In this document: piece after piece, positions 6,745 to 61,813 of the stretch
Position numbering within the stretch: position 1 is the stretch's first letter
Layout: each line of letters begins with the position of its first letter
NCBI RefSeq assembly: GCF_002795805.1
Contig: NZ_CP018799.1
Span: 1,729,001 to 1,793,000 of the forward strand
DNA: 64,000 nt
Origin: Mariprofundus aestuarium
Lineage (GTDB): Bacteria > Pseudomonadota > Zetaproteobacteria > Mariprofundales > Mariprofundaceae
Reading direction: 5' to 3'
The notes under the pieces: generated by a model
Databases searched by the model: none
What the model was told of the DNA's origin: nothing
The model's input: the letters and a program-made list of their open reading frames with translations, nothing else
Program-made: the position numbers and the translations under genes

Positions 6745-6773
6745 TTGCTAATATTACTGACAGGGGTATGAAT

Positions 6774-7280: not shown

Positions 7281-7302
7281 CCAGAACAACTCAGGCAACA
7301 AC

Positions 7303-7333
7303 GAAAAAAGCCCGCTATTAAGCGGGCTTTTTT
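7303..7333. terminator. Bidirectional Rho-independent terminator
   Basis: The 7-bp stem GCCCGCT/AGCGGGC (7310-7316 and 7321-7327) with loop ATTA is flanked by an A run on the left and a T run on the right. It therefore serves both the FKBP gene and the convergent zinc-finger gene. Confidence 0.92.
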
Positions 7334-7355
7334 AATACATCTTATATTAAATCAA

Positions 7356-7727
7356 TCAGTCGAGGCGAGTACGCTCTTCCTGCTCCTGAGCAGTTTTGCA
7401 CTCGATGCAAAGCGTAGTCACCGGACGCGCATGCAGGCGCTTAACACTGATGTCCCCGCCGCACGATTCACACTCACCAAACTCGCCGTCATGAATACGG
7501 GTGATCGCCTGATCAATCTTCTTGATCAACTTGCGCTCACGATCCTTGATACGCAGATCGAAATTACGGTCGGTTTCCATAGTGGCCTGATCAGTCGGAT
7601 CAGGAAAAGCGGTCTGCTCCTGCCCGGTCATGGACTGCACATTGTCGCTCTGCCCGATTTCAAGCTCACCTTTCCACTCAGTCAGTTGCGTTTCAAATTC
7701 AGCCAATTGTTTCTTGGTCAGTGCCAT
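7356..7727 (-). CDS. DksA/TraR-family zinc-finger protein, 123 aa
   Basis: Binds the RNA polymerase secondary channel in the manner of DksA. It starts MALTKKQLAEFETQL, has an acidic coiled-coil region with DPTDQATMETDRNFDLRIKDRERKLIKKID, then the C-terminal C4 zinc finger CESCGGDISVKRLHARPVTTLCIEC. The length is shorter than classic DksA (about 150), resembling DksA2 or the RPA-type proteins of the family. GGAGG sits 6 nt before the ATG at 7727, so longer in-frame extensions are rejected. Which of several DksA paralogues it is cannot be told from this window. Confidence 0.87.
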   Translation of the reverse strand: MALTKKQLAEFETQLTEWKGELEIGQSDNVQSMTGQEQTAFPDPTDQATMETDRNFDLRIKDRERKLIKKIDQAITRIHDGEFGECESCGGDISVKRLHARPVTTLCIECKTAQEQEERTRLD

Positions 7728-8999: not shown

Positions 9000-9567
9000 A
9001 GTCTCTTTGACCGGTCAGGTGCATAAAAGCCTGCTTGCCCGCATAAAAGATGGTGCAACCTGCATTGATGCCACAGCAGGCAACGGTTTTGACACCCTGT
9101 TTCTCGCCTCCCATACTGGAGAGGCGGGCCACACTTACGCTTTCGACATCCAGCAGCAGGCCATCGACAATACAAAAAAACGACTGGCTGAAGCTGACCT
9201 TCTGGACCGGGTGACATTAATCCATGCTGGCCATGAATCCATGCTGGAGCATGTACCTGAAACTGATCATGGCAAGGTTGATATCATCGTCTTCAATCTC
9301 GGATACCTGCCCAGAACAGATAAGTCCGTAATCACGCATGAGCCCACAACACTGCAGGCGCTTAACAGCTCCCTAAAACTGCTCTCCAGCCGCGGCCACA
9401 TCTCCATTCTCGCTTACCCCGGTCATCCCGGTGGTCGAGAAGAGGCCGAAGCTGTCAAAACCTGGGCGAAACATCTTCCTGCAACATTTGATGCACGAAT
9501 TCATGAGCCGGAAAACAGTGGTGGCTCATCTCCAGAGTGGATTGAAATCAACGCTATTGCTAAATGA
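8992..9567 (+). CDS. Class I SAM methyltransferase, MnmM/YtqB-like, 191 aa
   Basis: The SAM-binding motif I is IDATAGNGFDTLFLA, followed by YAFDIQQQAIDNTKKRL (motif II) and IIVFNLGYLPRTDKSVITHEPTTLQAL. The last is the signature of the YtqB/MnmM family (annotated in older genomes as putative rRNA methylase). MnmM methylates 5-aminomethyl-2-thiouridine at the tRNA wobble position in bacteria lacking a full MnmC. The neighbouring flavin oxidoreductase resembles the MnmC oxidase domain, so the two overlapping genes could share a tRNA substrate. Function is inferred from the family. Confidence 0.82.
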   Translation: MARVSLTGQVHKSLLARIKDGATCIDATAGNGFDTLFLASHTGEAGHTYAFDIQQQAIDNTKKRLAEADLLDRVTLIHAGHESMLEHVPETDHGKVDIIVFNLGYLPRTDKSVITHEPTTLQALNSSLKLLSSRGHISILAYPGHPGGREEAEAVKTWAKHLPATFDARIHEPENSGGSSPEWIEINAIAK

Positions 9568-9651
9568 CCATTTCGCATGCCGACTCAACCGATCATTCAG
9601 TTTTGAAGCCTGAACTAATAGCTATATCGCCCTCAACGCTTTCTGAATGAA

Positions 9652-10476
9652 CTATTCGCTCTCTTTCAGCCGGTCGTAAAAGAAATTAGTAGCGGCTACA
9701 AAACCATCAATACTGCCACAGTCGAAACGCCTGCCATTGAACCGATAGGCGATCACGTTCCCCTGTGACGCCTGTGCCTGAAGTGCATCGGTAATCTGCA
9801 CTTCACCACCCGCACCCGGCGGAGTGTTCCTTATAATGTCGAAAATGTCGGGCGTGAGGATATAACGCCCGATAATAGCAAGGTTCGATGGCGCATCTTT
9901 AGGATCAGGCTTCTCTACCATCGTTTCGACACGAGTATGCCGCTCATCAATTTGCTGCCCACTGACAATACCGTACTTGTTCACCTCCTCATGAGGCACC
10001 TCCTCCACGGCAACAACACTGCACTGGTACTTCTCATATACCTTCAGCATCTGCGACATGATCCCCTCCTCTCCGACACAAAGGTCATCGGCAAGAATCA
10101 CACCAAAGGGGTCATTTCCAATAATGGTGCTTCCGGTAAGAATGGCATCTCCCAGTCCGCGCATATGAACCTGTCGAGTATAGGAGTAGGTACACTCATT
10201 AATGAGACCACGGATCGATTCAAGTCGTTCCTCACGACTTGTGCCTTTGAGCTGATCCTCCAGTTCATAGACGATGTCAAAATGATCCTCAATGGCGCGT
10301 TTATTTCGACCTGTCACCATGGCGATATCCATCATTCCAGCCTCAGCAGCCTCCTCGACACCATATTGGATCAGAGGTTTGGTCAGGATCGGCAGCATCT
10401 CCTTAGGTTGCGCTTTGGTTGCCGGTAAGAACCGTGTACCGTAACCGGCCACGGGGAATAGACATTTCTTAATCAT
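9652..10476 (-). CDS. galU: UTP-glucose-1-phosphate uridylyltransferase, 274 aa
   Basis: Makes UDP-glucose from UTP and glucose-1-phosphate. It has the nucleotidyltransferase start KKCLFPVAGYGTRFLPATKAQPKEMLPILTKP, then QYGVEEA and MVTGRNKRAIEDHFD, FGVILADD, KPDPKDAPSNLAIIGRYIL and the C-terminal RFDCGS(I)DG motif typical of GalU. It lies 21 bp after the amylosucrase gene at the end of the sucrose operon. There it can supply the UDP-glucose donor for sucrose-phosphate synthase as well as for envelope sugars. Confidence 0.95.
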   Translation of the reverse strand: MIKKCLFPVAGYGTRFLPATKAQPKEMLPILTKPLIQYGVEEAAEAGMMDIAMVTGRNKRAIEDHFDIVYELEDQLKGTSREERLESIRGLINECTYSYTRQVHMRGLGDAILTGSTIIGNDPFGVILADDLCVGEEGIMSQMLKVYEKYQCSVVAVEEVPHEEVNKYGIVSGQQIDERHTRVETMVEKPDPKDAPSNLAIIGRYILTPDIFDIIRNTPPGAGGEVQITDALQAQASQGNVIAYRFNGRRFDCGSIDGFVAATNFFYDRLKESE

Positions 10477-10497
10477 GCATTTCTTCTCCTATACTCA

Positions 10498-12453
10498 TTA
10501 CTCGCTCAACCAGTAGAATCCGTAGCCCGGAATGGCCAGCTGGTCATTGAAAACCGGTGGGGATTCACCACTGCAGAGGTCCCTGATGTTATCGTGCTTG
10601 AAATGGCCCATTCGACGCAGCTGCTCCAGATCGAGATATTGCGGCATGGCATCGAAATTTCCGACCACAACCACGCCCGAGGTGCTATATCGGTGATCGA
10701 AATGGGCATAGGCCAGAAGATGGGCATTGCCCAAATCGAGCATTTCGCGGTTGTTGAAATCGGCAAAGGAGGGAATCTCCTTGCGCACAGCAATCAACTT
10801 CTTCAATGCCGTGAATATCCGGTACTCAATCGAACCAGGCTGACTTCTGAGCTCCGCCTTCTGCCAATCAATCACCGGACGGTGAATCCATCGACTATCG
10901 TTTAGTTTGCTCTCATCCTGCTGGTAATCGTAATTGTTCAATGTACCAAGCTCATCGCCATAGTAGAGCAGTGGAATACCACCGAAGGAAAGGATCATCG
11001 CATTAAGCAGCAGGATGATATTAATGGCGCTATCGATGGCATGTTCGTCACCCGACTCCAGTGCGCTCTCCAGCCCGGCTAGTGAAGCGAGCGTCCCTGA
11101 GATACGGGCATCCCCAGTCTTTTCATTGGCCGCAAAGGGGCGCCCGCGGGCAGGAGAGTCCTCATATTTGCCGGTAAAGTAGTCAACCAGAAAACGTCGA
11201 TGCGCTGCCGGTTCGTAACCGGCAAGTCGGATATCGTTATCATCAAATCCCAGTCCGATATCGTCATGACACCGGATATAGTTCAGCCATGTGGCTCGCT
11301 CCAGCTTGTCCGGAAGACTCTTGATGCCGCGATAGAGCAGTTCCGCCTTTCTGGTGGCAACCGCATCCCAGAGCAAAGCCATAAACGTGGCGTTGTAGGC
11401 GATCTCACACTCTTTGGCATTGATCGCATCTTCACCGAAATATTTGGTAACCTCGACCGGAGCCACAATCGCCTCGGCGATGAATAGCACTCCCGGTGCG
11501 GTGACTTGGCAGCAGTCCTTGAGAAGCTGTAGAATTAGATGCGCCTCGCGCTCGTTCTGGCAGGTGCTGCCAATCTTCTTCCAGAGGAAAGCAACCGCAT
11601 CAAGACGCAGAATATCGGCACCGTGATTGGCCCAGTAGAGAATGATGTCGATCATCTCGATGAGCACGGAAGGGTTACTGTAGTTGAGATCCCACTGATA
11701 ATCATTAAATGATGTCATCACCCATTTGCCCATCGCCTCATCCCAGGTGAAGCTTCCTGGCGAGGTTTCAGGAAAGATTTCGGGCATCGTTTCCTCGAAC
11801 ATGTCCGGTATGTCGCGATTATCGAAGACGTAGTAGTACTCCTGATAACGTTTCTCACCACTGCGAGCGCGTTTAGCCCATTCATGTTCATCGGAGGTGT
11901 GATTAAGCACCACATCAAGGGTAAGAAGCATCTCACGCCTGTGCATCGAACCGGAGAGTGCATCGACATCCTCAAGAGAACCGATCCGTTCATCAATGCG
12001 GCGGAAATCACGAACGGCATAACCGCCATCACTCCTGCCCGGTGGGCAGTCAAGCACCGGCATCACATGCACCATATTGATGCCAAGTTCCTGTAAATAA
12101 TGAAGCCTCTCCTTGAGCCCTTTCAGATCACCGGCAAAGCCATCACTGTAGAGTGCCATACCGACCCACTTCTGACTCAAAAACCAGTTATGATCACTTT
12201 CCCGCTCAAGGTCGGTCTCTCTCAGAGCATCAGAGCGAGCGATGTACTGATAGGCCAACGTCTCAACCAGCTTCTGCATCTGCTCCGTGAAATCGGCTCT
12301 ACCACCATAAAGCTTCTCGAAGAGCGAGTGGATGGCATAAAAATTCGCACCCAGACGCGTATAGAAGTAGCGCATCTTCGGCTGTTTGATGATTTCCGGA
12401 TCAAGCTTGATAAGAATTTCGTTCAGTAGGGAGTGTGAAACCTGCTCATACAT
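10498..12453 (-). CDS. ams: Amylosucrase (GH13), 651 aa
   Basis: A GH13 subfamily 4 enzyme that splits sucrose and transfers glucose to an alpha-1,4-glucan. The GH13 motifs are clear: LTLDVVLNHTSDEH, the nucleophile region ADILRLDAVAFLWK, acid/base VLFIAEAIVAP and the transition-state aspartate in NYIRCHDDIGLGFDD. The set with FLWK, AEAIV and CHDDIG is diagnostic of amylosucrase. The length matches the family (about 640). It overlaps the fructokinase gene by 8 nt, and fructokinase would phosphorylate the fructose released. In this organism it probably links stored sucrose to glycogen. Confidence 0.92.
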   Translation of the reverse strand: MYEQVSHSLLNEILIKLDPEIIKQPKMRYFYTRLGANFYAIHSLFEKLYGGRADFTEQMQKLVETLAYQYIARSDALRETDLERESDHNWFLSQKWVGMALYSDGFAGDLKGLKERLHYLQELGINMVHVMPVLDCPPGRSDGGYAVRDFRRIDERIGSLEDVDALSGSMHRREMLLTLDVVLNHTSDEHEWAKRARSGEKRYQEYYYVFDNRDIPDMFEETMPEIFPETSPGSFTWDEAMGKWVMTSFNDYQWDLNYSNPSVLIEMIDIILYWANHGADILRLDAVAFLWKKIGSTCQNEREAHLILQLLKDCCQVTAPGVLFIAEAIVAPVEVTKYFGEDAINAKECEIAYNATFMALLWDAVATRKAELLYRGIKSLPDKLERATWLNYIRCHDDIGLGFDDNDIRLAGYEPAAHRRFLVDYFTGKYEDSPARGRPFAANEKTGDARISGTLASLAGLESALESGDEHAIDSAINIILLLNAMILSFGGIPLLYYGDELGTLNNYDYQQDESKLNDSRWIHRPVIDWQKAELRSQPGSIEYRIFTALKKLIAVRKEIPSFADFNNREMLDLGNAHLLAYAHFDHRYSTSGVVVVGNFDAMPQYLDLEQLRRMGHFKHDNIRDLCSGESPPVFNDQLAIPGYGFYWLSE

Positions 12454-41300: not shown

Positions 41301-41360
41301 AAAACCGATTGACGGTCGGTTTTATTTTCTCATTATAGGCCACTAGCAAGACATGTTGTC
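41301..41360 (+). promoter_or_regulatory. Promoter and candidate operator of the BlaI-like gene
   Basis: A -35 TTGACG (41309-41314) is followed by CATTAT (41331-41336) at a 16-bp spacing. The -35 lies in the inverted repeat AAAACCGA/TCGGTTTT (41301-41308, 41316-41323). Downstream, GACATGTTGTC (41350-41360) is a perfect dyad GACA-tgt-TGTC, resembling BlaI/CopY-type operators (ACA-TGT). The repressor would then control its own gene. Confidence 0.55.
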
Positions 41361-41379
41361 CTAGAAGGAGAATCCATCA

Positions 41380-41787
41380 GTGCTTCCTGTGAAACGACAA
41401 AACCTAGGTGAATTAGAAATGGCTGTTCTAGAGCACCTTTGGACTTCGGCATCCGGAGATGCAAAGGGGGTGCATAAAAGCATCGGCACTCAGCGTGGGA
41501 TTTCTCTAAATACAATTCAGTCTACTTTAGAGCGATTATTCAGAAAACAGCTCCTGAAGCGTGAAAAGATTAGTCATTCATATGTTTATTCTCCATCCGT
41601 TCAACGAGGGGAACTGATGACTCAACTAATCGATGATGTGGTTAAAACACTTTCAGGTGGAAAGACTGATTACTTATTGTCTGCCTTTATTGATTATGCT
41701 GCACGAGAAGATGAATCCAGCCTTGATCGCTTGGAACAACTGATTGCACAACGTCGAGCTGATGAACCTTCGGATAAAAACGAATGA
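41380..41787 (+). CDS. BlaI/MecI/CopY family transcriptional regulator, 135 aa
   Basis: A winged-helix repressor: LGELEMAVLEHLWTSASGDAKGVHKSIG, SLNTIQSTLERLFRKQLLKREKISHSYVYSPSVQRGELMTQLIDDVV, the normal BlaI layout of an N-terminal DNA-binding domain and C-terminal dimer helices. It starts with GTG, with AAGGAG 9 nt upstream. The stop overlaps the next gene's start (ATGA), the protease that probably cleaves it. The location at the head of a metal-efflux cluster suggests it represses that cluster, as CopY does for copper genes. Confidence 0.9.
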   Translation: MLPVKRQNLGELEMAVLEHLWTSASGDAKGVHKSIGTQRGISLNTIQSTLERLFRKQLLKREKISHSYVYSPSVQRGELMTQLIDDVVKTLSGGKTDYLLSAFIDYAAREDESSLDRLEQLIAQRRADEPSDKNE

Positions 41788-42779
41788 ATAACTACTTTGG
41801 AGTGATCCAACTTGGACTTCTTGCCAGTTTAGGGTTCGCGATTCTAGCCGCGCTTGTTAGTGCAATTGTTTACCCATTTGTCCGGCAGCGTATGGCTAAG
41901 CTATCACCTAAATTACGTTCAACGACTTTGCTCGCCTGGTTGATTGCACCTGCTCTTATAGGGGCAGTGCTCAGCCTTCTCAGCTTCATGCCCTCAATCA
42001 TAAGCCTGTTTGGTTTTGTTCCTGATCATTGCAGCGTCCACGGTGGGCACTTACACCTTTGCCTGATTCACCCACCTTTACCAGTAGAAAACAGCATCCT
42101 GCAGCTCCTTCTAGCCGCATTGGTTGGAATAAGCATTTTCTTTATTGGTACTCCTGTCTTTGATCTATTACGTGCTCATAAGTTTCAACGGACATTGATG
42201 ATGGCAAGCCGTCCTCATGAAACAGATCCTGTTCGTATAGTAGATTGGGATATGCCTCTTGCCTTATCAGTGGGCTTTCGTCGTATGAGGGTATTTATAT
42301 CTTCTCAATTGATGCAAACCTTATCTCCACAGCAGTTGGATGTGGTGATTGCCCATGAACAGGCCCATGTAAGCCGTAGAGACCCATTACGGCATTTTAT
42401 TGCGCATGCGTTCTCCTTCGCACATATCCCATGGCTTCGAAAAGACCTTCTGAAGGATTTTGACCTTGCGACAGAACAAGCGTGCGATGAGGTGGCAGCA
42501 GCTCAAACTGGGGGAAGGCTGCACGTTGCTGACACTATTCTTGCTGTTGAGCGGCTATTCATCATGCAGCGAGTTCCTTCTATGGTGATGTCAATTTCGG
42601 GCAGCAACATTTCTGCACGTGTTGAATCCCTCGTTGCTCAGCCTCCTATTTCTGAGCCTATATCAAGAGGCTATATAAACCTCTTTGGTATAGGCGTTCT
42701 GGTTGCCGTCGTTGCCGTGATTGATGACCTCCATCATTTTACTGAATCAATTCTCCAACTTATGACTGGGCATATGTAG
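41784..42779 (+). CDS. M56-family membrane metalloprotease (BlaR1-like), 331 aa
   Basis: Four hydrophobic helices (near 10-30, 48-72, 103-125 and 295-315) with the cytosolic zinc motif VIAHEQAHVSRRDPLRHF (HExxH) and the third ligand region DLATEQACDEVAA, as in BlaR1/MecR1. Those sensors carry a penicillin-binding domain after the protease; here the protein ends after about 330 residues without it, so the inducer is something else. Coupled to the BlaI gene by a 4-nt overlap, it should cleave the repressor. A His/Cys-rich periplasmic loop (DHCSVHGGHLHLCLIHPP, about 74-91) could be the metal-sensing part (inference). Confidence 0.88.
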   Translation: MNNYFGVIQLGLLASLGFAILAALVSAIVYPFVRQRMAKLSPKLRSTTLLAWLIAPALIGAVLSLLSFMPSIISLFGFVPDHCSVHGGHLHLCLIHPPLPVENSILQLLLAALVGISIFFIGTPVFDLLRAHKFQRTLMMASRPHETDPVRIVDWDMPLALSVGFRRMRVFISSQLMQTLSPQQLDVVIAHEQAHVSRRDPLRHFIAHAFSFAHIPWLRKDLLKDFDLATEQACDEVAAAQTGGRLHVADTILAVERLFIMQRVPSMVMSISGSNISARVESLVAQPPISEPISRGYINLFGIGVLVAVVAVIDDLHHFTESILQLMTGHM

Positions 42780-42845: not shown

Positions 42846-43157
42846 ATGAAGTGCTTAACAATAATAATTCACACCGATGACCAGCAGGAACTGACCAATC
42901 AACTACGAACGATTGGACAAGTACAAGGATTTACAATGAACCACGTAGAAGGCCATGGAATTGAGCCCGAACAAGATTCTTTTCTCTCGGCTAGAGACTC
43001 AGTGGTTGGAGCCATTCCTCGAGTGAGGGCAGATATTGTGCTGCAAGACAGTGATTTAGATGTGGTGCTCAATACTCTGCGGAATGCCAGAGCCAGTGGT
43101 CAAATGAAAGGGGCTTATTATTGGGTCACCGCCGTAGAACAAGATGGGCATCTATAA
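42846..43157 (+). CDS. DUF3240 (PII-like) protein, 103 aa
   Basis: A ferredoxin-fold protein of the DUF3240 family: MKCLTIIIHTDDQQELTNQLRTIGQVQGFTMNHVEGHGIEPEQ...DIVLQDSDLDVVLNTLRNARASGQMKGAYYWVTAVEQDGHL. Members are usually encoded beside heavy-metal RND pumps and are thought to be cytosolic PII-like sensors. Its place at the head of this efflux cluster fits. The stop TAA overlaps an in-frame ATG of the next gene that I do not consider the start. Confidence 0.8.
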   Translation: MKCLTIIIHTDDQQELTNQLRTIGQVQGFTMNHVEGHGIEPEQDSFLSARDSVVGAIPRVRADIVLQDSDLDVVLNTLRNARASGQMKGAYYWVTAVEQDGHL

Positions 43158-43192
43158 TGGTCTCTTACATCATAAATAAGGAAGTCAGAAAT

Positions 43193-51796: not shown

Positions 51797-54211
51797 TTAT
51801 AGCATATCCAAAACTGTTTCCTTCTGCTGAGATTTACTCATCTGCTTGCTGAGTTCGTCTAAAGCCAAGTCACCTAGCATCTCTTTATCAGCATAAATTT
51901 TGGTTTGGTTCTTGGCCCGAGTGAGCTGAACATAACCCATCTCCTTGGAAATCATTTTACCTGATGAAAAGATATAAGAACGACTGACAGATTGACCTTG
52001 AGACTTGTGGGTTGAGATAGCATAGGAATGCTTGAAGTAGCCATACTCATCCACATTCACTGAGATGACCTCTCCATCATCCAGCCGAGCCTGATAGGCA
52101 TCTTCTGACACATTCAGAACAGTTGCCTGAATGCCGTTTTTAACACCAAGTCGGATATCATTCTTGGTAAACATGATCCGATCATCCTCAGCTATATCGA
52201 TATAGCCATATTCACTTTCGTATTGGTTCTCAACACCAAGCTCTCCAGCCTCTCTAAGCTTGGCTCTGGCCAGGTTATTGAGCTCTCGGCACTCGGCGTT
52301 GGTACTGGCAAGGATGATGCCGTTATCTCCATGTTTTTGTCTGTCCGCATCCCAGTCACTGATGAGCTTGTCCTGACTAGCCAACACATGATCTGAAATA
52401 GATAACAGACCTCGCTTGGCATAGCTCATCAGGGCTTCAGATATCTTGCCTCCTCTGAAGTCTGATACAGCCTGCTTGTCTGCTTCGCCTTGCTGCCTTC
52501 TGTTCTCAGAGAGTTCTATATAACCGATGTTCTGCTGCAAGTTCCTGAAAAAGGATAAACCAATCGCCTCAAGCTGATGGGTGTCGCCAACAAAGATGAG
52601 TTTTGCTCCATTGGCTCTCATCATCAGCTTATTAATGAGCCTGCTATCAGCAGTGCCAGCCTCATCAATAATGACCACAGACTTGTCATCCAAAGATTTA
52701 GACCCGATTTCCATGTCGATGAGTAAGCGATGGATGGTTCCAGACTGAATGCCAGAGCCTTCCTGAAGGTTCTGAGCTGCCACAGCAGAGAGAGCACAGC
52801 CCATAACTTTGTATCCACTGGCTTGGTAAGCATCTTTCACAGCACCTAGAGAGTAGCTCTTGCCTGAACCCGCAGACCCTTGCACCGCAATGACACCATC
52901 AGCCTTGCAACAGTGAAGAAGCATCTGCTCCTGCTCCTCTGATAGTGAGCGCGATCTAATGGCTTTATCAATTGCACTGCTTTTCACGGCATGACTAGAT
53001 TCTGATTTTCTGCCTTTGGCATATGATTGAATACCTTGCTCAATCTCTAATACTTCCTTTGTTGTGAAGCGGTGCTCGCCGTCAGCACCAGCACCTAAAT
53101 TTATCAGTTCAGGAGAGTTTCGCGTCTGCTGGAAACGTCCCTCAATGATTTTGGCATCCCCATCCACAATCGATGTCAGAGCAATGTGCTTGTATAGCCC
53201 AATCTCATCGAAGGTGGACTGCTGCTCTGTGATGCTCTCCAGTGTCTTTTCTACCGACCAAGGCTCAGGTTTCTCTTGTGCCCTGGTGGTACGGATACTT
53301 TCAAGCTCAACGCCCATCTCCTTGGCTTCTTGTTGCCAAACCTTGAATAGATCATCTCGATTTATTTCGGTCTTCCTCCCTCTGGAGCCCAGTGCCGCTA
53401 ACTTTCGTCGTGTATGGACATTGGTCGCGTGGTCGAGCTTCAACTCTTTCTCAGCCGCAAGCAGCTCTGAACGTCTTCCTGACCAAGACTTCTTTAGCTC
53501 TTCCGGCACCCCAGCAACTCGAAAGCCATTCTTGTCCGGCTCAATGGCATAGCCCAGCTTTTGAAGGGCGCTGGATAATTCAGCTGAGTGAATGGCTGAG
53601 GCAGACATCTGATGCCGATAGAAATCACATTGCAAGGTTCGGACCACACCATCGTCGCACCTCACCATATTGGGGATGACTGCATGGGTATGGAGATGAA
53701 CGGAAGGTCTTGTCTCTGACTTGGCCTGCCTTGCAGTGGAGTGCTCAAAGGTGGCGGCTATCAGGCGCTTAACCTGAACCTTCTCCTCACCAGCTTTGCC
53801 AGTCCGTGAATAGGTCGCATTGTTTTGGATATATTCAATAGCCTTTTCAACGGCATTCTGCTGAGCCTGCTGGATAAGACTTCTCTCCTCCTCACTAGCC
53901 AGAGCAAAGAGGATAGAGACATCCTTACCGCAGTTGAATGTCAGGTCATATGCATGCTTTCGGTGCTTGGTTCCCTTGATCAGCTTCTTGCCATCCTGGT
54001 CTTCACCCCGGAACAGGTGATTAAGTGTATCCAGGTCAGGTTCTTTATTTTCAAGACCGAAATCAGCTAAACCATCGCCAATAAATATACCTTTCGGCTC
54101 ACCTGATTCAGCTTGGCTTGATAGATACTCTGCATAATATTGCGCACCATTCATTTCTTTGTTGCCTGACTTTGTTCGCTTCATTCCTCCAATCTGAGTG
54201 ATACTGAGCAT
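51797..54211 (-). CDS. MobF-family relaxase/helicase (TrwC/TraI-like), 804 aa
   Basis: Nicks oriT and unwinds the strand for transfer. The N-terminal HUH relaxase has the active-site tyrosine pair in NGAQYYAEYL (about 22-31), and the metal-binding histidines in SVHLHTHAVIPNMV (about 170-183). The C-terminal part is a superfamily 1 helicase: GVIAVQGSAGSGKSYSLGAVKDAY (Walker A), SVVIIDEAGTADSRLINKLMMRA, LIFVGDTHQLEAIGL and STHKSQGQSVSRSYI. At 804 residues it is shorter than TrwC (about 966). It overlaps the coupling protein gene by 1 nt. It starts MLSITQIGG, as MobF relaxases do. Confidence 0.88.
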   Translation of the reverse strand: MLSITQIGGMKRTKSGNKEMNGAQYYAEYLSSQAESGEPKGIFIGDGLADFGLENKEPDLDTLNHLFRGEDQDGKKLIKGTKHRKHAYDLTFNCGKDVSILFALASEEERSLIQQAQQNAVEKAIEYIQNNATYSRTGKAGEEKVQVKRLIAATFEHSTARQAKSETRPSVHLHTHAVIPNMVRCDDGVVRTLQCDFYRHQMSASAIHSAELSSALQKLGYAIEPDKNGFRVAGVPEELKKSWSGRRSELLAAEKELKLDHATNVHTRRKLAALGSRGRKTEINRDDLFKVWQQEAKEMGVELESIRTTRAQEKPEPWSVEKTLESITEQQSTFDEIGLYKHIALTSIVDGDAKIIEGRFQQTRNSPELINLGAGADGEHRFTTKEVLEIEQGIQSYAKGRKSESSHAVKSSAIDKAIRSRSLSEEQEQMLLHCCKADGVIAVQGSAGSGKSYSLGAVKDAYQASGYKVMGCALSAVAAQNLQEGSGIQSGTIHRLLIDMEIGSKSLDDKSVVIIDEAGTADSRLINKLMMRANGAKLIFVGDTHQLEAIGLSFFRNLQQNIGYIELSENRRQQGEADKQAVSDFRGGKISEALMSYAKRGLLSISDHVLASQDKLISDWDADRQKHGDNGIILASTNAECRELNNLARAKLREAGELGVENQYESEYGYIDIAEDDRIMFTKNDIRLGVKNGIQATVLNVSEDAYQARLDDGEVISVNVDEYGYFKHSYAISTHKSQGQSVSRSYIFSSGKMISKEMGYVQLTRAKNQTKIYADKEMLGDLALDELSKQMSKSQQKETVLDML

Positions 54212-56052
54212 TATTCATCACCATCCAGCTCGGGAGTATCCACACCATCCAGGTCTTCAAAGTCATCCTCTAAAGGCTTTGCAAGCTTCCCTCTCGTAGG
54301 AAATGGTTTTGGCTTAAATATCTTTTCCTCTGGGGCTTGGGGTGGTTCAACCTCATTCATCCAATCAACTGGCTCATCAACGGAGGCTGTAGGTTTAATC
54401 TTTAAGAAGTGCCATTGCAGCTTTGCAATGGGGAAGCTTGAAATATAGAGCCATGCTGGAACACCGCCTTTCTCAGTCGGGTCAGGCAAGTTCATGATAG
54501 AGCTGTTAAGCATGGTAGGTTCAATCTTCTCAACCCATTGAGTATCCCACTCCATTTTCTCACGTCCTTTGTCATCAAGGCTCTTTATCAGTCGCACATC
54601 AGCTCGGATGATGCGCCTGTCTCCTCCCATATCAGCGGCAAGAGCTGAAGCTGTATCAGCATCAGACACTCGACAGATAATTCGGGTCGCAAACTGTGAG
54701 AAGATGGTCTGAGCAATATCAGCCCCATACTTCTCACGCATCGAGCTGAAGTTCTGGATACCACACATGAACCTGAATCCCCTACTTCTTGAAGCGATCA
54801 GGCACTCTTCTAATCTCGGGATAGATGGCAGAGTTGCTAACTCATCTATGACAGCCCAAATCCTTCGCTTACCATCGTCCTTCAGAGATAGGACTTCACC
54901 GAATAGCTGGTTGAATATGATATATAGTAGCCAGTTTGAGACTGCCGAGAGGCCAGGATAATTTCTTAGGATGACAATTCGATTGTCCGGACTTTTATCA
55001 TGTATCCAATCACGCACTGAAAAACCTGATGATGGATTACCCCAGGCTTTGCCAAGCACGTCGAATATCCATGCGCCAGACCTAACGGTAGTCATTATTG
55101 AGTTTGCACCACGATCTTCATTAGGCTTATCAATCGTATTAGCTGCACCATGTCCAATAGACCTCAGAAGCTTTGCCATCTCTTGTCTGTCCTGGTTAAG
55201 AAGATCAGACACATCCTGAAAGCCCCAGCTACCAGGCTTGGTTGTAATGAGATATTCAATGACACCGGATAGTACATCACGTGCACTGTCACTCCATACA
55301 GGTTCGGATGTTTCTTTGATAATGGTTTTAGCAAGTTCCCTCGCGAGTAAAGGATCATGAATGTCTTTAGCAATGTGCCATGCCTCAGATCGCTTATCTG
55401 CAAAGCCAATCAGTGAAACTTCATCACGACCAAGAAGCCATTCGGTCATGTCTCCTTTGTAGTCATAAACCACAGCTTTATCGCCACGCTTAATAATAGA
55501 CTGAATTGCATGAAGCATGGATGCAGTTTTTCCTGAACCGACTGAGCCGAGGTAGAGCAAGTGCTTTGACTCGAACTCATATGGAAGCCTGAAGTTGCCA
55601 CCAACTCCTTGATAAATTTTAATGCCGCGCTTCTTCCATATACCCACTTTCTTTCTGAAAGCTTTGATGCCTGCTCTGGCTTGTTCAAAAACTTCAACGC
55701 CATCTTTGATGTAGATCCAGCTCATCCGATCTGGTCGCCTAATCCAGGGTATGATGCTTGCGACGGCCCCAATCAATCCGAAAGATAATGAAAAGGTGAT
55801 GTGTTGAACTATCGGCAACACCAGTTTCCGCATCTCTAACGCATTGAGATATTGTTCAATGCTCCGTGAGCCATCCATGATCTTACTCAAATAACTAAGA
55901 TGAACTGCGAGTGGTCCAAGTGATTTACTATCCCAAAAAAGAAGGAACGCGATTGCTGATGTAGCTACAAATCCCAGTGCTGCAACTTTGAATAGATGCT
56001 CACTTCTTATGTTGATATATCGTCTGAGCTGACGCTCCGGATCATTCAACAT
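54211..56052 (-). CDS. Type IV coupling protein (TraD/TrwB-like), 613 aa
   Basis: The membrane-anchored ATPase that brings the relaxosome to a secretion channel. Two N-terminal helices are near residues 25-50 and 85-108, followed by KHLLYLGSVGSGKTASMLHAIQ (Walker A), VVYDYKGDMTEWLLG, WAVIDELATLPSIPRLEECLIASRSRGFRFMCGIQNFSSMREKYG (Walker B and the T4CP motif) and RIICRVSDADTASALAADMGG. The C-terminal tail is acidic. The start is ambiguous among ATG codons at 56058, 56055 and 56052; the last has the best AGGA spacing (7 nt). Confidence 0.87.
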   Translation of the reverse strand: MLNDPERQLRRYINIRSEHLFKVAALGFVATSAIAFLLFWDSKSLGPLAVHLSYLSKIMDGSRSIEQYLNALEMRKLVLPIVQHITFSLSFGLIGAVASIIPWIRRPDRMSWIYIKDGVEVFEQARAGIKAFRKKVGIWKKRGIKIYQGVGGNFRLPYEFESKHLLYLGSVGSGKTASMLHAIQSIIKRGDKAVVYDYKGDMTEWLLGRDEVSLIGFADKRSEAWHIAKDIHDPLLARELAKTIIKETSEPVWSDSARDVLSGVIEYLITTKPGSWGFQDVSDLLNQDRQEMAKLLRSIGHGAANTIDKPNEDRGANSIMTTVRSGAWIFDVLGKAWGNPSSGFSVRDWIHDKSPDNRIVILRNYPGLSAVSNWLLYIIFNQLFGEVLSLKDDGKRRIWAVIDELATLPSIPRLEECLIASRSRGFRFMCGIQNFSSMREKYGADIAQTIFSQFATRIICRVSDADTASALAADMGGDRRIIRADVRLIKSLDDKGREKMEWDTQWVEKIEPTMLNSSIMNLPDPTEKGGVPAWLYISSFPIAKLQWHFLKIKPTASVDEPVDWMNEVEPPQAPEEKIFKPKPFPTRGKLAKPLEDDFEDLDGVDTPELDGDE

Positions 56053-56278
56053 CATCATTTCCTGCAAGCTTATCAATGATAAGGCTGTGAGATTTCTTGA
56101 TGATTTTCTCTAGTCGAGTGAGCTGTTCCAGCGATGCACTTTCCCTCTTCGCTAGTGAAACTTTATCTCTGACGACCTGAGCTAAAGACTGGCCTCGCTC
56201 ATCAGCCTCGGCCTTCAACCAATCAAATGTATTCTCACTGAACATGGTATTGATACGTGTACTTCTTCGTTTTGCCAT
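56042..56278 (-). CDS. Ribbon-helix-helix relaxosome accessory protein, 78 aa
   Basis: A small basic protein: MAKRRSTRINTMFSENTFDWLKAEADERGQSLAQVVRDKVS. The pattern RRSTRINT-x-FSENTFDWLKAEADERGQSLAQVVRD is a ribbon-helix-helix DNA-binding domain, followed by a helical tail. In MobF systems such a protein (TrwA/TraY type) binds oriT. GAGGAG precedes the ATG at 56278 by 7 nt. It overlaps the coupling-protein gene and heads the transfer operon. Confidence 0.8.
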   Translation of the reverse strand: MAKRRSTRINTMFSENTFDWLKAEADERGQSLAQVVRDKVSLAKRESASLEQLTRLEKIIKKSHSLIIDKLAGNDDVE

Positions 56279-56539
56279 AGCTATTCTCCTCAAACACGCC
56301 TATGAAGTGGCTGTGTTCTTGGATATAGGTAATCAAATGAAGAATGTTAGTTCACGACCAAGGTATAACAGTATGTTCACGCTAAATCGCTTGCGATTAC
56401 TGGATATTTGATGATTCCAGCTTTTGGGTAACACAACCTTTGTGAGAAAGGTGTTTAAATATTCAATCTGTGCGAAACGGAGAAGGAATCAACGACGGAA
56501 TGTCTGAACATTGATGCCGGAAGGTGAAGCCTACCATGA
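56279..56539. other. Intergenic region, candidate oriT
   Basis: About 260 bp without a gene lie between the mobilization operon and the recombinase operon. An imperfect hairpin is at about 56430-56455 (ACACAACCTTT-GTGAG-AAAGGTGTTT). A TrwA-like gene right beside it makes this the best place for the transfer origin, but I recognise no known nic sequence. Confidence 0.4.
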
Positions 56540-56944
56540 CTAACGGCTATTTTTTTTTGGTAGTGGGTTATTCAATTTTTCCATGCTAATGCCATGTGCA
56601 TAGGCGTTGTATTGCCATACCACAAACTGAGCTAACAGCCCCTCCTGTTCTTTTTTCAGCCGACTATTCTCGGCTTCAAGCGTTGCTATACGCCTTGCTG
56701 CAATTTTGAGCGACGGGGGGATCTTTTCTTTGCGTTTACCATTATCTCGTAAATCCTTCTTCTTTTCACCATATGCCGATTTGATTCTCGAATAGCTCTG
56801 AAGTGTCTGCCTGGTAGCTGTAATTGAATATCTTTTGAGAGCTAAGCCACAAAGATTATCCCATGTGAATTTCACCTCATCATTCCATTGATCGATAAGT
56901 GATACGATTTTTTCTATATCTTGGTCGGTGACATGCTTTGCCAT
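56540..56944 (-). CDS. ginD: TnpC/GinD-like small recombination accessory protein, 134 aa
   Basis: A small basic protein with an N-terminal helix-turn-helix-like part (TDQDIEKIVSLIDQWNDEV...LAL KRYSITATRQTLQSYSRIK) and a C-terminal coiled coil (RIATLEAENSRLKKEQEGLLAQFVVW). It corresponds in size and place to TnpC of Tn554 and the fourth gene of GInt islands. Its start shares one base with the stop of the third recombinase (TGATG), so it is translated from the same operon. It has no recombinase catalytic residues. Confidence 0.75.
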   Translation of the reverse strand: MAKHVTDQDIEKIVSLIDQWNDEVKFTWDNLCGLALKRYSITATRQTLQSYSRIKSAYGEKKKDLRDNGKRKEKIPPSLKIAARRIATLEAENSRLKKEQEGLLAQFVVWQYNAYAHGISMEKLNNPLPKKNSR

Positions 56945-58839
56945 CAGGAACCTCTCAACATCTTTAGTTTAGCTAGTGCATGAGGCGGCCTGTTAAGCGG
57001 TTGTGCACCAGATTTACGATTCTTTTCAATTTTTGGAAGGCGTTTTTTATGGTTAATATCCAGGGCCTTATCTAAATGGCTCATATCCAACGCAGAGGAA
57101 AGCTTGATTAAGGTTCCATCAGGTAAATTATCATCAGTAAGTCGGTCAATAAGTTCTGAGCAATACTTTATTGTTTCAAGGCGCTTGTTGTAATGACGAT
57201 CAGCCCCAATCGAGCCCTCATCCATGGCTGCTTTATCAGATTCAAGCAATGACTGCTCACTAGCAAGGCGCATCTTTAACCTCTCCACCTTTACCTCATC
57301 GCCTTTAATGCAAACCTGCTCTGTACAGGTGACACAGTTTCTGTGTTTTGAGCAGGGAGAAATAATATAATCGTGTATGCACACACCAAACTCTGTCTGA
57401 TGCAGCGTCAGTGAGGCACTCGTGTTAATCTCTTGAATGGTTTCAGGCTTAATAATCTCTATGGTTGAGAGGTTGTTACTGCCTTTCTCACGCCCTGCAA
57501 TGAGTGAATATTGCTGGTTGTAGTGCTCTGGCAAAGTGTGATTATAAACTCGGTTATGTTTTTCATTTGCTCGCCCTGCCCACTTAGTTAAAAGCTCCGT
57601 TTCCATACCATTAACTTTCGCAATCGTTGTTAGCAAATGACGCATTTGGTGAGAAGTAACTTTATACGATGGGTATTTATATCGTTCAAATACACTCTTA
57701 ACGTTACTCAGTTCATCAGTCCCTCTTTTCTTTTTCTTTGTTGGGGCCAAATCTTCATTTAGCGTATTAATGTCAGGCATCCATAACTTATTCGTCTTTG
57801 TCTGGATTTTCGCACTTAACTGATGCTCGAAAAGAGTAAATAGCCCCTCAGACCAGCGAACCTTAACGTCTTTTCCTCGTTTATATTTTATATATGGTAG
57901 TGGCAGTTTCTGGCCAACCAATAATTTTTCACTATCTCTGCCTGCTTCTAAATACAACGCAAACTTGCGTGCTCCAGCGGACAACTTTTGAAGCCTTTTG
58001 ACAGCCTCCCTTACAGTTTCCTCCATTACGCTGGGAACCCATTCAACCTCGTGCCCATAACCTTTACCGGAATACCATTTTATACCAAGAGCCTTATTAC
58101 CATTTCGGTCAACATCTTCATGAAGACAGTCTTCCTTTAGATAGAATAACTCACTCGCTCTTGCTGGGGCAGCCATAAGTATTGCCATAGCAGATGTCGT
58201 AAATATATCTCTTGGAGCAAGGTGCTCTTCACCCAGTGCAAACATCTCGGCCAAAGCCTGAAGCCCATTTTCATCAGGTAGTTTTTTATTTCTATTCTCA
58301 ACACCCTTCTTCCCAACTTTTTCGATTGTATCTTCACCACGTTTTATTGGGTTCAACCAAGTGAATGACTTGATGATTTTTTTTACAACGAGAAAGCGCT
58401 GAAGTTTCTCAAGGTGAATTCCACCATGATAAGCCGCCTGAGTAGAATAAGACTCACGAATTTCTTGAGCCGCTTGATCAAGCATTGTCGAATTAAGAGT
58501 GCATATATCAACCTTTCCGTGCGCCCTCACCATCACTTTTTCAATTGCCCTGAGGGCCTTCATCTCATTAAGCGTCTTAGCCGGATTAAGGGTTTGACTA
58601 TATATTAGATAGGCTTTCGCGAAAGGAACTATTGAGCCATCCAAGATGTTTTCAGGTCCCCTGTTTCGTGATGAGACACCCATTTTTGTGAAATTGGCAG
58701 CACCTTTCCAATATGCTGAGGCATAATCCATTTCTTGATTTAGCGGAGGTAATGATTCAGCGAAGGAAATAAAGTCATTCAGGTTACGAATAGCATCTCT
58801 TTCGAACTTTGGCGTAAAGATCAGTACATTATCATCCAT
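56944..58839 (-). CDS. ginC: Tyrosine recombinase 3 (GinC/TnpB-like), 631 aa
   Basis: The largest of three adjacent phage-type integrases. The catalytic domain (about 200-460) shows AAPARASELFYLKEDCL (first Arg), VTSHQMRHLLTTIA (HxxR) and WAGRANEKHNRVYNHTL (W at the H/W position, then the Tyr). Beyond it is a C-terminal part with a cysteine cluster VCIHDYIISPCSKHRNCVTCTEQVC, probably zinc-binding, and coiled coils. It resembles TnpB of Tn554 in size and layout. The ATG at 58839 is preferred because GGGGG lies 9 nt upstream; it overlaps ginB by 8 nt. Confidence 0.85.
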   Translation of the reverse strand: MDDNVLIFTPKFERDAIRNLNDFISFAESLPPLNQEMDYASAYWKGAANFTKMGVSSRNRGPENILDGSIVPFAKAYLIYSQTLNPAKTLNEMKALRAIEKVMVRAHGKVDICTLNSTMLDQAAQEIRESYSTQAAYHGGIHLEKLQRFLVVKKIIKSFTWLNPIKRGEDTIEKVGKKGVENRNKKLPDENGLQALAEMFALGEEHLAPRDIFTTSAMAILMAAPARASELFYLKEDCLHEDVDRNGNKALGIKWYSGKGYGHEVEWVPSVMEETVREAVKRLQKLSAGARKFALYLEAGRDSEKLLVGQKLPLPYIKYKRGKDVKVRWSEGLFTLFEHQLSAKIQTKTNKLWMPDINTLNEDLAPTKKKKRGTDELSNVKSVFERYKYPSYKVTSHQMRHLLTTIAKVNGMETELLTKWAGRANEKHNRVYNHTLPEHYNQQYSLIAGREKGSNNLSTIEIIKPETIQEINTSASLTLHQTEFGVCIHDYIISPCSKHRNCVTCTEQVCIKGDEVKVERLKMRLASEQSLLESDKAAMDEGSIGADRHYNKRLETIKYCSELIDRLTDDNLPDGTLIKLSSALDMSHLDKALDINHKKRLPKIEKNRKSGAQPLNRPPHALAKLKMLRGS

Positions 58840-60394
58840 ATGCAACATCCCCCTTCAGTTCAGCACAGCTTTTCATTACCTGAGTAACTGCATATATTGC
58901 TCTATCGTTGATCGCTGCTATTCCCAAATCATTAGTGTCTTGAATGATCCTTTCCCGTTCATCTAACAGCCATTTCAAAACAAGGTGGTGAGGTGCATCT
59001 CTCCATGCTTTGAATTTAGGGCAGGTATAACAAGCGACTGGCGCATAATCATGGCACATGGCATTTGTCCCACAGGAACCAATATTATCTCGACTATCAT
59101 TGGTTCTAATGCGTTGTGCGCCGGGTATAGTAGTGAATACATCATCTTCAGACTCCACTACATCTCCCTGAAATGCACTTGCATATCGCATAAGAGATCC
59201 ATTCATAATCTCTGAGATCGTTGCAGCATGCTCGGGAATATTAGCGACATAGACCTTTGTATTCTGGGTATCTACGTGATCCAATAATGTAGCGATGGTC
59301 AGAACACCTGCACCTTCTCGTGCAGCCCGAGTACCCAATGTATATCGAAAGCGGTAACCCGTTGTTTTGAGAGCCTTGCCAGTCCTTTCTGAAGTAATTT
59401 GTAATTTATCAATAATATTTTTGAGCTGTGATGTTATTTCTACTGTTTTCCGGTGTGTAACGTCCGTATCCATGGCCATTCTCAAATCATCATCAGAAAG
59501 CCCTTTTAGTTGTTTTAGGTCCCCGGGAAACACAGGTAACAAATCAGAATATTCTTTACTCAGCGCTCTTCCAATTTGACGTTGGGCCATTTTTTTCACG
59601 CTTTCAACATGAATCCTTAGAACTTGTCCTATACTTTCGATAACTGCAAAGTCTGTAAATTCTGCTCGAAACCCACGCCCTCTAACTTTCGCCTTAGGTA
59701 CACGCAACATAAACACAGGAGCATCCAATGTTTTTGAATCGATTCGCAGATCACCTGTTTTTAATGATGCAATTTGGATTGGTCGGCGTCCTGTTGCAGC
59801 AAACATCTGCGCCAATGAGTATTCTTCAGCATTAATTACTGACTCAGCAAACTTATTATCAAGTCCAAACCTTATAGCTTCAAACTCAGTATCGCTGTAT
59901 GGGCCATCCTCAGCATCAAGTGATAAGACGGCTGTTCCCTTATCATTCCCTGACAACTTCCAACTAGAAAGCAATTCAAACACCTGATCACTTACCGCGT
60001 TAAACTCAAGAAAGTAGATCTGCTTCAGGAATACCCTTAAGACCCCTAACCTATATTCATCTTTTTTCGCTAAGAATTTTGACTTATAGGAAATCACTCC
60101 TTCCTGAGTAATCGTTTTAAATCCGTTTTTTAGATATCCTTTAATCTCTCGGCAAACATTCGCAGTGTGGCCAACAGATTTATTCTCTGCAAAATAGGCC
60201 AAGGTCGCTCGAAGGTCATCTTGTATCTCTAATGAAAACTCATCAATAAAAGAAACGTTGATTTCTACGTTTATATTTAGCTTCCAAACGTCAGAGCATA
60301 TATCAAACTCATACCCATTAAATGATACTGATTTTGATACATTATTTACTGATAGAGCGTTAACTTTCATGTTATTATCCATTCGCACACTCAA
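58832..60394 (-). CDS. ginB: Tyrosine recombinase 2 (GinB-like), 520 aa
   Basis: The catalytic domain is in the middle: FAATGRRPIQIASLKTGDL (first Arg), TTGYRFRYTLGTRAAREGAGVLTIATLLDHVDTQNTKVYVANI (HxxR equivalent, His, Tyr). The first His of HxxR is replaced by Tyr (YRFR). A C-terminal cysteine cluster CGTNAMCHDYAPVACYTCPKF probably binds zinc. The listed start is a TTG overlapping the ginA stop by 4 nt; in-frame ATGs at 60382 and 60370 are alternatives. It is the middle gene of the recombinase operon. Confidence 0.83.
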   Translation of the reverse strand: MSVRMDNNMKVNALSVNNVSKSVSFNGYEFDICSDVWKLNINVEINVSFIDEFSLEIQDDLRATLAYFAENKSVGHTANVCREIKGYLKNGFKTITQEGVISYKSKFLAKKDEYRLGVLRVFLKQIYFLEFNAVSDQVFELLSSWKLSGNDKGTAVLSLDAEDGPYSDTEFEAIRFGLDNKFAESVINAEEYSLAQMFAATGRRPIQIASLKTGDLRIDSKTLDAPVFMLRVPKAKVRGRGFRAEFTDFAVIESIGQVLRIHVESVKKMAQRQIGRALSKEYSDLLPVFPGDLKQLKGLSDDDLRMAMDTDVTHRKTVEITSQLKNIIDKLQITSERTGKALKTTGYRFRYTLGTRAAREGAGVLTIATLLDHVDTQNTKVYVANIPEHAATISEIMNGSLMRYASAFQGDVVESEDDVFTTIPGAQRIRTNDSRDNIGSCGTNAMCHDYAPVACYTCPKFKAWRDAPHHLVLKWLLDERERIIQDTNDLGIAAINDRAIYAVTQVMKSCAELKGDVAYG

Positions 60395-61674
60395 ACCGGT
60401 AACTTAGCATCATCGATTCGATTCTTATCAGCAGTACGCACCTTTTTTTGAAGATGTAAGCCAAATGCCTTGGCTTTCTTCTGCTGATAACGTTTAGTGT
60501 AAGTCATTGCAGTCCCAGAACCTTCTTTCCATCCCATGAGATAGCTGCGCAGATCCTCCACCTCAGACTCTGTCATTTCCCCTGAGTTTAAGAAGGGCTC
60601 AACCTGTTCACTAAAAGCATCGTTCCAAGTATGTCGTAGTGCGTGTGGATGAACATTGAACCCAAGGGCTTCCGTCAGAGTGGCAAACATTTTATCTATT
60701 GAAGCGTGAGATAGTGGTCTTGCTACTGACGCCCCATTTTGGTGACTGACAAACAAATATGGACACTTATTCACACCTTTCACCCTAGACCGATACTTCA
60801 TGATGTAATCTTCGATCATCAAATACAGCTCATCAGAAACTTCGACATCTCGGCTAAGTGTTTTTACCAGCGATGGGACTTCTCGTGGATCATCCGGATC
60901 ATCTGCATTTCTTCTGATACATATGGTTTTCTTCCCAGGGTCTAAGTCAGTCGCTTTTAAGGATAGGAGTTCACCTTTGCGCTCCCCTACATACAGGAAA
61001 AGATGCACAATTAACTGATTACGAAAACAAACCTCTTCATTTTTCCATGGGTTATCAACAGCAGTTGGTTCAACTATCTCCAGTAATCGATCCCTTTGCC
61101 ACTCTTCCAAAGATTTAAACGGTTCATTGCCAGACGATGGCATTTTCACCGGCCGGTGATTAATAATGCGATTAGTCATCCTGCCAATAACTGTCTGTGA
61201 GTCTGGTGACACTGTATTTGCCAACCAAGACACATACTGAGAAATAATTGTTAATCTGTTGTAAGTGGTATTAGCGCAAACAAGGTCTTCATCTATAACG
61301 ACCGTATAACGTGCTAATTCGATTTTCTTCAGATTGATGGGCACTACGTTAGTAGCTTTCTCACAGTTCTTTGCTTTAGAGAGCTCTGCTTTAGACTTTT
61401 TGGACCATAGCGCAATCGATTCAATTTCCGAACTTGTCAATAAATCACCTGCACGAAACCTGCTTTCAAGGTCGATCCCAAGAAAATCACATAGCTCGGC
61501 AAAGAACCCAAGAGCACCGATAACAGATTTAATGGTATTGATCGAATCAGATTTATTTCGATGATGGGTGGTGATGTACAGATTCTGATAAACTAAGGGC
61601 TTTCCAGTGTCAGCATCTACCAGCAGAGCATGTCGTTCACCGTTCGGAAACCTAAAAGCATGATATTTATACAT
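60391..61674 (-). CDS. ginA: Tyrosine recombinase 1 (GinA-like), 427 aa
   Basis: A phage-type integrase: an N-terminal SAM-like core-binding region, then the catalytic domain with LFLYVGERKGELLSLKATDL (first Arg), GFNVHPHALRHTWNDAF (HxxR) and LMGWKEGSGTAMTYTKRYQQKKAKAF (W, then Tyr). It is first in the operon, closest to the ssb-side attachment site. The start at 61674 is preferred because GAGGTG lies 7 nt upstream and the N-terminus MYKYHAFRFPNGERHALLVD fits recombinases; an in-frame extension to 61788 has no ribosome site. Confidence 0.85.
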   Translation of the reverse strand: MYKYHAFRFPNGERHALLVDADTGKPLVYQNLYITTHHRNKSDSINTIKSVIGALGFFAELCDFLGIDLESRFRAGDLLTSSEIESIALWSKKSKAELSKAKNCEKATNVVPINLKKIELARYTVVIDEDLVCANTTYNRLTIISQYVSWLANTVSPDSQTVIGRMTNRIINHRPVKMPSSGNEPFKSLEEWQRDRLLEIVEPTAVDNPWKNEEVCFRNQLIVHLFLYVGERKGELLSLKATDLDPGKKTICIRRNADDPDDPREVPSLVKTLSRDVEVSDELYLMIEDYIMKYRSRVKGVNKCPYLFVSHQNGASVARPLSHASIDKMFATLTEALGFNVHPHALRHTWNDAFSEQVEPFLNSGEMTESEVEDLRSYLMGWKEGSGTAMTYTKRYQQKKAKAFGLHLQKKVRTADKNRIDDAKLPV

Positions 61675-61813
61675 ACACTTACACCTCAGAACCATACAAA
61701 TATAAATGGTATGTGATAACCCTATCACGGCCATAAAAAAAGCATACAGAAATATTTGTAAATCTCTGCATGCTTCCTTATAAACCATTGATACTATTAG
61801 ATTCTAATCATAA
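61675..61813. other. Recombinase-operon leader at right end of island
   Basis: A+T-rich, no gene. It contains ATGGTATGT (61706-61714) and an inverted ACCATA (61691-61696), both like the att core. The gin operon promoter should be here, but no strong -35/-10 is clear. Confidence 0.45.

Follow-up and report, generated by a model that had tools for sequence, protein, structure and literature searches.

A BlaI-type repressor and a short M56 membrane protease as a candidate metal-responsive switch of a CzcCBA efflux cluster in Mariprofundus aestuarium

The window, the 64,000-nucleotide stretch of the Mariprofundus aestuarium genome analysed here, contains a BlaI/MecI-type repressor gene adjoined by the gene of a short M56 membrane metalloprotease, with a czcCBA metal efflux cluster downstream of the pair. 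The reading that we favor, with a probability of roughly 0.56, is that metal bound by a loop of the M56 protein leads to cleavage of the BlaI-type repressor, which frees the operator and induces the efflux pump. It is not rated higher because the TonB-dependent receptor genes that adjoin some related pairs conflict with it. The pair, the predicted fold, the catalytic motif, the conservation of operator and loop, and the position of Phe103 were computed; for DNA binding, metal binding, cleavage and the direction of the response we infer the following course. Without metal, a dimer of the BlaI-like repressor would occupy AAAACCGA-N7-TCGGTTTT, cover the -35 box and silence its own operon into czcCBA. 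A rise of metal outside the inner membrane would be sensed through binding to the loop between helices 2 and 3 (HC..H..H.H.C..H), and the HHxxE end of the last helix perhaps shares in this binding. Metal binding would move helix 3 and open the cytoplasmic HExxH site, and the opened protease would cut the repressor at Ala102-Phe103. The operator would then be freed and the pump and accessory proteins made.

The comparison comprises 32 loci, the window included, four of which are relatives from its class. The others are 5 of 11 plasmid records, all 4 records of one further search, the five next-best Pseudomonadota pairs (G374, G237, G217, G367, G271) and 13 places in Gammaproteobacteria beyond G237, with the exception of G434 (553 aa, E 6e-19). 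G397 and G302 were examined and left out as another M56 branch, and the weaker matches of the 398-genome search served as controls only. A query with the single protein (E of 1e-8 or less) detected the M56 gene in 5 of the 78 genomes searched from the window's class. Strong matches (E of 1e-80 or less) were found in 7 of the 398 Pseudomonadota genomes sampled, and matches at 1e-18 or better in 12 of the 369 sampled genomes of Gammaproteobacteria. The pair and pump also occur on plasmids of Pseudomonas, Shewanella, Pseudoalteromonas and Glaciecola.

Table 1 Features of the repressor-protease pair and the czc cluster in the window.
Feature	Position	Strand	Remarks
Proposed operator AAAACCGATTGACGGTCGGTTTT	41301-41323		Perfect 8-base arms, 7-base centre containing TTGACG
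Promoter-like hexamers TTGACG / CATTAT	41309-41336	+	Spacer 16, 9/12 matches
Dyad GACATGTTGTC of the earlier note	41350-41360		4-base arms, 3-base centre; not conserved
blaI-family repressor	41380-41787	+	135 aa, GTG start, no Cys
Ala102-Phe103 of repressor	41683-41688	+	Aligned with BlaI/MecI cleavage region (BlaI Asn101-Phe102)
M56 membrane metalloprotease	41784-42779	+	331 aa, 4-base overlap of start with blaI stop
His/Cys extracytoplasmic loop, residues 81-96	42024-42071	+	H82 C83 H86 H89 H91 C93 H96
HExxH catalytic motif HEQAH, H191-H195	42354-42368	+	M56 gene
Glu231, third zinc ligand of gluzincin motif	42474-42476	+	In 31/32 loci
C-terminal HHxxE (H317, H318, E321)	42732-42746	+	Predicted outer end of last helix
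DUF3240 / P-II-like small protein	42846-43157	+	
HupE/UreJ-type membrane protein	43151-44341	+	
DUF6488 His-rich protein	44538-44894	+	Signal-peptide-like start
112-aa membrane-like ORF	44955-45293	+	Weak to PRK09272 models, below cut-off
106-aa His-rich ORF	45375-45695	+	No family found
CzcC-type outer membrane factor	45805-47046	+	OEP
CzcB-type adaptor	47043-48263	+	HlyD
CzcA/CusA-family RND pump	48273-51410	+	ACR_tran; closest solved structure by sequence is ZneA

Repressor, protease and downstream cluster

An earlier note, made from the DNA letters, had named the first gene a BlaI/MecI-type repressor and the second a BlaR1-type protease lacking the penicillin-binding domain, and both assignments hold. 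The repressor matches Penicillinase_R (PF03965) at 73.6 bits against a cut-off of 22.6, over positions 1-115 of the 115-position profile, and aligns with BlaI and MecI of known structure. Its Phe103 is aligned on the MecI Phe, and Phe stands at this position in 29 of 31 repressors. BlaR1 cuts BlaI between Asn101 and Phe102 (PMC9834060). A structure model of the repressor, with mean pLDDT of 75 and pTM of 0.56, was left out of the interpretation.

The M56 protein passes Peptidase_M56 (PF05569) at 33 bits, just 2 bits above the cut-off of 31, and also Peptidase_M48 (33.1 bits against 20.3). It carries the HExxH motif and the downstream Glu (H191, E192, H195, E231) that, together with a profile score above cut-off, define the class; this Glu has the role of third zinc ligand (PMC9834060). 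H191, H195 and E231 are kept in 31 of 32 members and E192 in all 32. The Pfam scan returned only M56/M48 matches, with no BlaR1/MecR1 sensor domain among them; residue 331 is the last of the protein and no further domain was found, so it has no penicillin-binding sensor. The one exception to the catalytic conservation, L187 (G271), has Tyr and Arg at positions 191 and 195, with repressor, operator-like site and TonB receptor retained. Proteolysis looks impossible there because both catalytic His residues are lost, and this M56 protein is perhaps a sensor without protease activity.

An AlphaFold2 model of the M56 protein, built from a 27-row alignment, has a mean pLDDT of 86.3. Its best matches among solved structures are five BlaR1 cryo-EM entries with VIA-align Z-scores of 11.3 to 14.4 (top match: Z 14.4, rmsd 5.7, 234 aligned), followed by ZMPSTE24/Ste24p at Z 9.4 and below. 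Foldseek gave the same ranking, with modest TM-scores (0.47 at best) and large global rmsd. The model places helices at residues 5-37, 42-67, 104-141 and 295-328, each with hydrophobic stretches, and from these positions residues 76-103 would be the loop between helices 2 and 3, which two studies describe as extracellular in MecR1 (PMC6925264) and in BlaR1 (PMC9834060). The BlaR1 study adds that EL1 continues into helix 3 and that helix 3 connects to the protease; the loop is part of the sensor domain, and its displacement is proposed to pull on helix 3 (PMC9834060). The signal in BlaR1 passes through this extracellular loop.

The earlier note also placed the pair at the head of a CzcCBA cluster. 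The czcCBA genes do lie downstream (45805-51410), with five ORFs intervening between the M56 gene and czcC (DUF3240, HupE, DUF6488 and the 112-aa and 106-aa ORFs) and gaps of at most 196 bases. A single transcript would probably run from blaI into czcCBA; counted against it are the start of czcC 3 kb past the M56 gene, the 196-base gap after hupE and the finding of no second operator within the window cluster, where the best score is 12/16 and lies inside the DUF6488 gene. The RND pump passes the CzcA/CusA heavy-metal model TIGR00914 at 1040.7 bits (cut-off 701.45) and is nearest in sequence to the zinc pump ZneA (667 bits), then to CusA (620 bits). It does not qualify as a Cu(I)/Ag(I) pump of the CusA type: three periplasmic Met positions of CusA, which we take to be metal ligands, are R, N and E in the window pump. 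Because ZneA is nearest and the Met positions are replaced, a divalent metal is likelier than Cu(I)/Ag(I), and judged from sequence the substrate most likely belongs to the Zn/Cd/Co/Ni class.

In the genome that carries the window, the searches yielded one gene each for a BlaI-family protein and an M56 protein of this kind. Directly past the czc cluster, the minus strand (51797-61788) carries genes for a TrwC relaxase, a TrwB/TraD-type coupling protein and a tyrosine recombinase; a further tyrosine recombinase scores just under the Pfam cut-off. This neighborhood suggests that the czc cassette is part of an integrated mobile island. The closest relative (L016), with an M56 protein 78% identical, has the same cluster of DUF3240, HupE, DUF6488 and CzcCBA, and there a phage-type integrase (6232-7494) precedes the cassette, again pointing to an island.

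A conserved palindrome over the likely promoter

The operator proposed in the earlier note, the dyad GACATGTTGTC just after the promoter, was dropped. It occurs in 1 of the 11 upstream regions compared, that of the window, and is absent from all 10 relatives; dyads of this kind number 4 in the 80 bases before blaI and 2.96 on average in 1000 shuffles, which is chance level. About 50 bases further upstream, a conserved palindrome, AAAACCGA-TTGACGG-TCGGTTTT, is centered on the likely -35 box. The weight of this palindrome lies in its conservation, since an 8-base arm by itself also arises in 7 of 1000 shuffled versions of the 80 bases. The promoter-like hexamers are weak on their own: the region contains 8 such sites, and shuffles give 9.8. 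With TTGACG in the palindrome centre and CATTAT 16 bases on, the likely -35 box would be hidden under a bound repressor.

Palindromes resembling AAAACCGATT-N5-TCGGTTTT are present in 10 of 10 proteobacterial upstream regions among the 11 compared and were not seen in the Bacillus-type L006. The operator motif was derived from these 11 regions. When all loci were scanned with 200 dinucleotide shuffles each, 25 of the 30 that could be scored, the window included, had a palindrome ahead of blaI; L010 and L210 were dropped with blaI or its upstream region off the contig. The score was matched by none of the 200 shuffles for 23 of the 25 palindromes, by 1 for L204 and by 6 for L206. Among scorable loci outside the motif-deriving set, 15 of 19 have an upstream site, and these sites had previously been seen by a looser expression. 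The scan missed an upstream palindrome at L006, L007, L008, L211 and L212. Copies scoring at least 13/16 stand just after M56 and before the next gene in 14 loci, and L007, L008 and L212 score 14/16 after M56, where scoring was done without shuffles. At L212 an operator-like site (6258) precedes a DUF2231 membrane gene (6524-7177) that itself precedes blaI, and this operon seems to begin with DUF2231.

The strict operator form has 8 distinct sites in 7 of 398 Pseudomonadota genomes, all 8 beside such pairs, against 0 for the backwards control. These 7 genomes are the ones with a best M56 match at E of 1e-80 or less; five had served to recognize the motif, while G374 and G237 had not. No such palindrome was found at L188 and L189, two pairs of another M56 branch. 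A looser form, AAACCGATN6TCGGTTT, gave 13 distinct sites in 11 of 369 gammaproteobacterial genomes, 7 beside pairs (5 genomes) and 6 elsewhere, against 4 counts in 3 genomes for its backwards control; 5 of the 12 M56-bearing genomes in this sample have it beside a pair.

Four of the six sites away from pairs fall within ORFs or at their very beginning, and one (L226) lies between converging genes and overlaps a doubtful ORF. The remaining one (L221, position 1501) is a lone intergenic site in G398, which has two pairs; a 129-aa ORF and a CxxCH-motif ORF follow it, possibly as a regulon member in trans. In the window genome, operator matches with up to 3 mismatches numbered 39+35 against 27+26 for the backwards control (palindromes count twice), a small excess, and the three next-best sites (L052-L054, 2 mismatches) were rejected as all lie inside ORFs. 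A scan of viral contigs with a 17-position operator pattern was set aside as too loose.

The palindrome might instead be a transcription terminator, as it scores terminator-like on both strands and the region holds 9 terminator-like sites against 4.1 in shuffles. However, the arm letters ACCGA/TCGGT are kept beyond mere pairing in most distant loci, the palindrome stands 5' of blaI and is often repeated after M56, and strict copies occur only beside such pairs in the 398-genome sample. We consider a terminator very unlikely because the letters of the arms, besides their pairing, are mostly kept.

The His/Cys loop and the genes beside related pairs

The His/Cys-rich segment pointed out in the earlier note, DHCSVHGGHLHLC, was located at residues 81-93, in the stretch that joins hydrophobic helices 2 and 3; the full loop of the window protein reads DHCSVHGGHLHLCLIHPPLP. 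A loop with at least 3 His and at least 2 Cys was counted in 23 of 32 members and in 0 of the 14 M56-like proteins used as controls; for at least 3 His, whatever the Cys, the counts are 30 of 32 and 1 of 14, and no control has 2 loop Cys. Loop limits were set by hydropathy in the controls and by alignment in the family. The controls are matches of the A1 profile, taken without a Pfam scan, from which proteins that were not M56-like or had an unclear loop (L039, L046-L050, L200) were dropped; L031, the same protein as L187 and lacking HExxH, is not among them, and the duplicates L040, L188 and L189 were counted once. Six members (L003, L004, L005, L183, L184, L213) have HWHH...H and no loop Cys. 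The C-terminal HHxxE is also kept (H317 in 30, H318 in 23 and E321 in 28 of 32), and, should the last helix end outside like that of BlaR1, this motif would be placed close to the loop.

A CzcA-type pump accompanies the pair in 17 of 32 loci. A TonB-dependent receptor, recognized by Pfam, does so in 7 (L007, L008, L185, L186, L187, L214, L216), five of the receptor genes being divergent and two downstream. An ABC-type exporter is found in one locus and other genes in three (L006, L211, L212); four contigs (L021, L207, L210, L213) end too early for a call. On a tree of 31 M56 proteins, where long branches make deep joins unsure, the TonB label requires 4 changes against a shuffled mean of 6.4 (5 of 500 shuffles as low) and the RND label 9 against 10.6 (90 of 500 as low). 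Loop conservation, the BlaR1 fold, the cleavage position and the RND clients together make the loop the likely sensor, and to this extent the control by BlaI and M56 that the earlier note envisaged stands, without its operator.

Efflux pumps suggest induction by metal excess, while TonB-dependent receptors are usually induced by scarcity or need. Induction of efflux by excess metal does not account for the seven pairs with TonB-receptor clients, two of which, L007 and L008, have the full pump-type loop, so the loop alone does not mark efflux. The conflict could be explained by a ligand that is a metal complex, by a polarity that is not the same in all branches, or by another role of the site.

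If the site has another role, the same proteolytic switch could answer a different signal (envelope stress, oxidation or a metal chelate, for example), with the His/Cys site holding a fixed zinc or a disulfide in a structural or redox-active capacity. Members linked to TonB receptors keep the site, as the core HC...C..H in L185, L186, L187, L214 and L216 and as the full long loop in L007 and L008, and it is therefore not specific to metal efflux. However, five of the seven TonB-linked members keep just the short core (HCH...C..H or similar), the ABC-linked L009 has lost all loop His, and the accessory genes in the window are His-rich. We regard a structural or redox-active site as rather unlikely. 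L009 is the sole member beside an ABC-type exporter: its pair (9537-10921) has the same operator and adjoins an HlyD-like adaptor and an ABC ATPase, and from its sequence it may be a natural case of sensor loss or of changed signal. A Peribacillus plasmid pair (L006, 7447-8687) lies near arsenic genes, with ECCNIH in the loop region and no such operator.

If polarity differs, the metal-bound loop might hold the protease off and lack of metal activate it, which fits the TonB-receptor clients at 7 of 32 loci. Efflux pumps, expected under excess metal, stand at 17 of 32 loci, the window among them, and a reversed polarity appears improbable.

Relation to known regulators and significance

The window pair resembles BlaR1-BlaI and MecR1-MecI of Staphylococcus in that an M56 HExxH membrane protease adjoins a winged-helix repressor, and in its predicted fold (Z 14.4), the Phe at the cleavage position and the extracellular loop between helices 2 and 3. 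In contrast to BlaR1 and MecR1, the window M56 protein has no penicillin-binding sensor domain, so it is not a BlaR1, and its loop is rich in His and Cys. The operator is ACCGA-N7-TCGGT rather than TACA/TGTA, and the clients are metal pumps or TonB receptors. With respect to proteolysis of the partner, the alignment suggests that the window pair shares the conserved cleavage position alone.

Like CopY/CopR, the window repressor is a BlaI-superfamily protein that would control metal export. CopY has C-terminal Cys-X-Cys motifs and a cop box, RNYKACANNTGTMRNY (PMC7253601). The window repressor might thus be imagined to sense metal itself in the manner of CopY, with the protease unrelated or constitutive, and its best weak NCBIfam match is indeed CopY_TcrY, which at 46 bits falls below the cut-off of 121.95. 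It contains no Cys, so a CopY-type CxC sensor is absent (repressors of the other loci have 0 to 4 Cys), the promoter lacks the cop box, and the repressor gene overlaps the M56 gene. The CopY/BlaI operator TACANNTGTA (KACANNTGTM) was not found in the 160 bases before blaI, where just GACA-N3-TGTC occurs, a sequence present in 0 of 10 relatives. With CxC, operator and score all missing, the repressor is not a CopY, and direct sensing by it is extremely unlikely.

CzcRS and CusRS are two-component systems in which periplasmic metal sensing controls CzcCBA and CusCBA RND pumps. The proposed system is similar in its periplasmic sensing and its RND metal pump client; unlike in CzcRS/CusRS, no kinase or response regulator was found among the ten cluster proteins scanned. 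The BlaI-M56-RND cassettes on Shewanella, Pseudoalteromonas, Glaciecola and Pseudomonas plasmids have the same pair and palindrome, with the RND pump directly after; their M56 proteins are 23-32% identical to that of the window, and three of four have a His-only loop. Annotation of these cassettes lists product names side by side and gives no function for the unit. A search of the open-access literature with narrow terms gave, among the matches listed, no description of a BlaI/M56 pair controlling metal efflux.

The families are known, and the window pair would work like BlaR1-BlaI, as a variant of BlaI/BlaR1 regulated proteolysis. We see about even chances that such pairs form a widespread undescribed receptor class, in which a short loop of the M56 protein serves as metal sensor in place of the fused sensor domain of BlaR1, with its own operator ACCGA-N7-TCGGT and with efflux pumps or TonB-dependent receptors as clients. 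If so, they would constitute a route of envelope metal sensing besides two-component systems and sigma/anti-sigma pairs, in which a protease of about 330 residues senses metal outside and destroys a repressor inside in one step. The protein would also offer a small model for BlaR1 loop signalling across the membrane, of relevance to beta-lactam resistance. The palindrome would provide a DNA motif for finding such regulons in genome data, and the pair would be a way in which metal-resistance cassettes on plasmids and in genomic islands are controlled.
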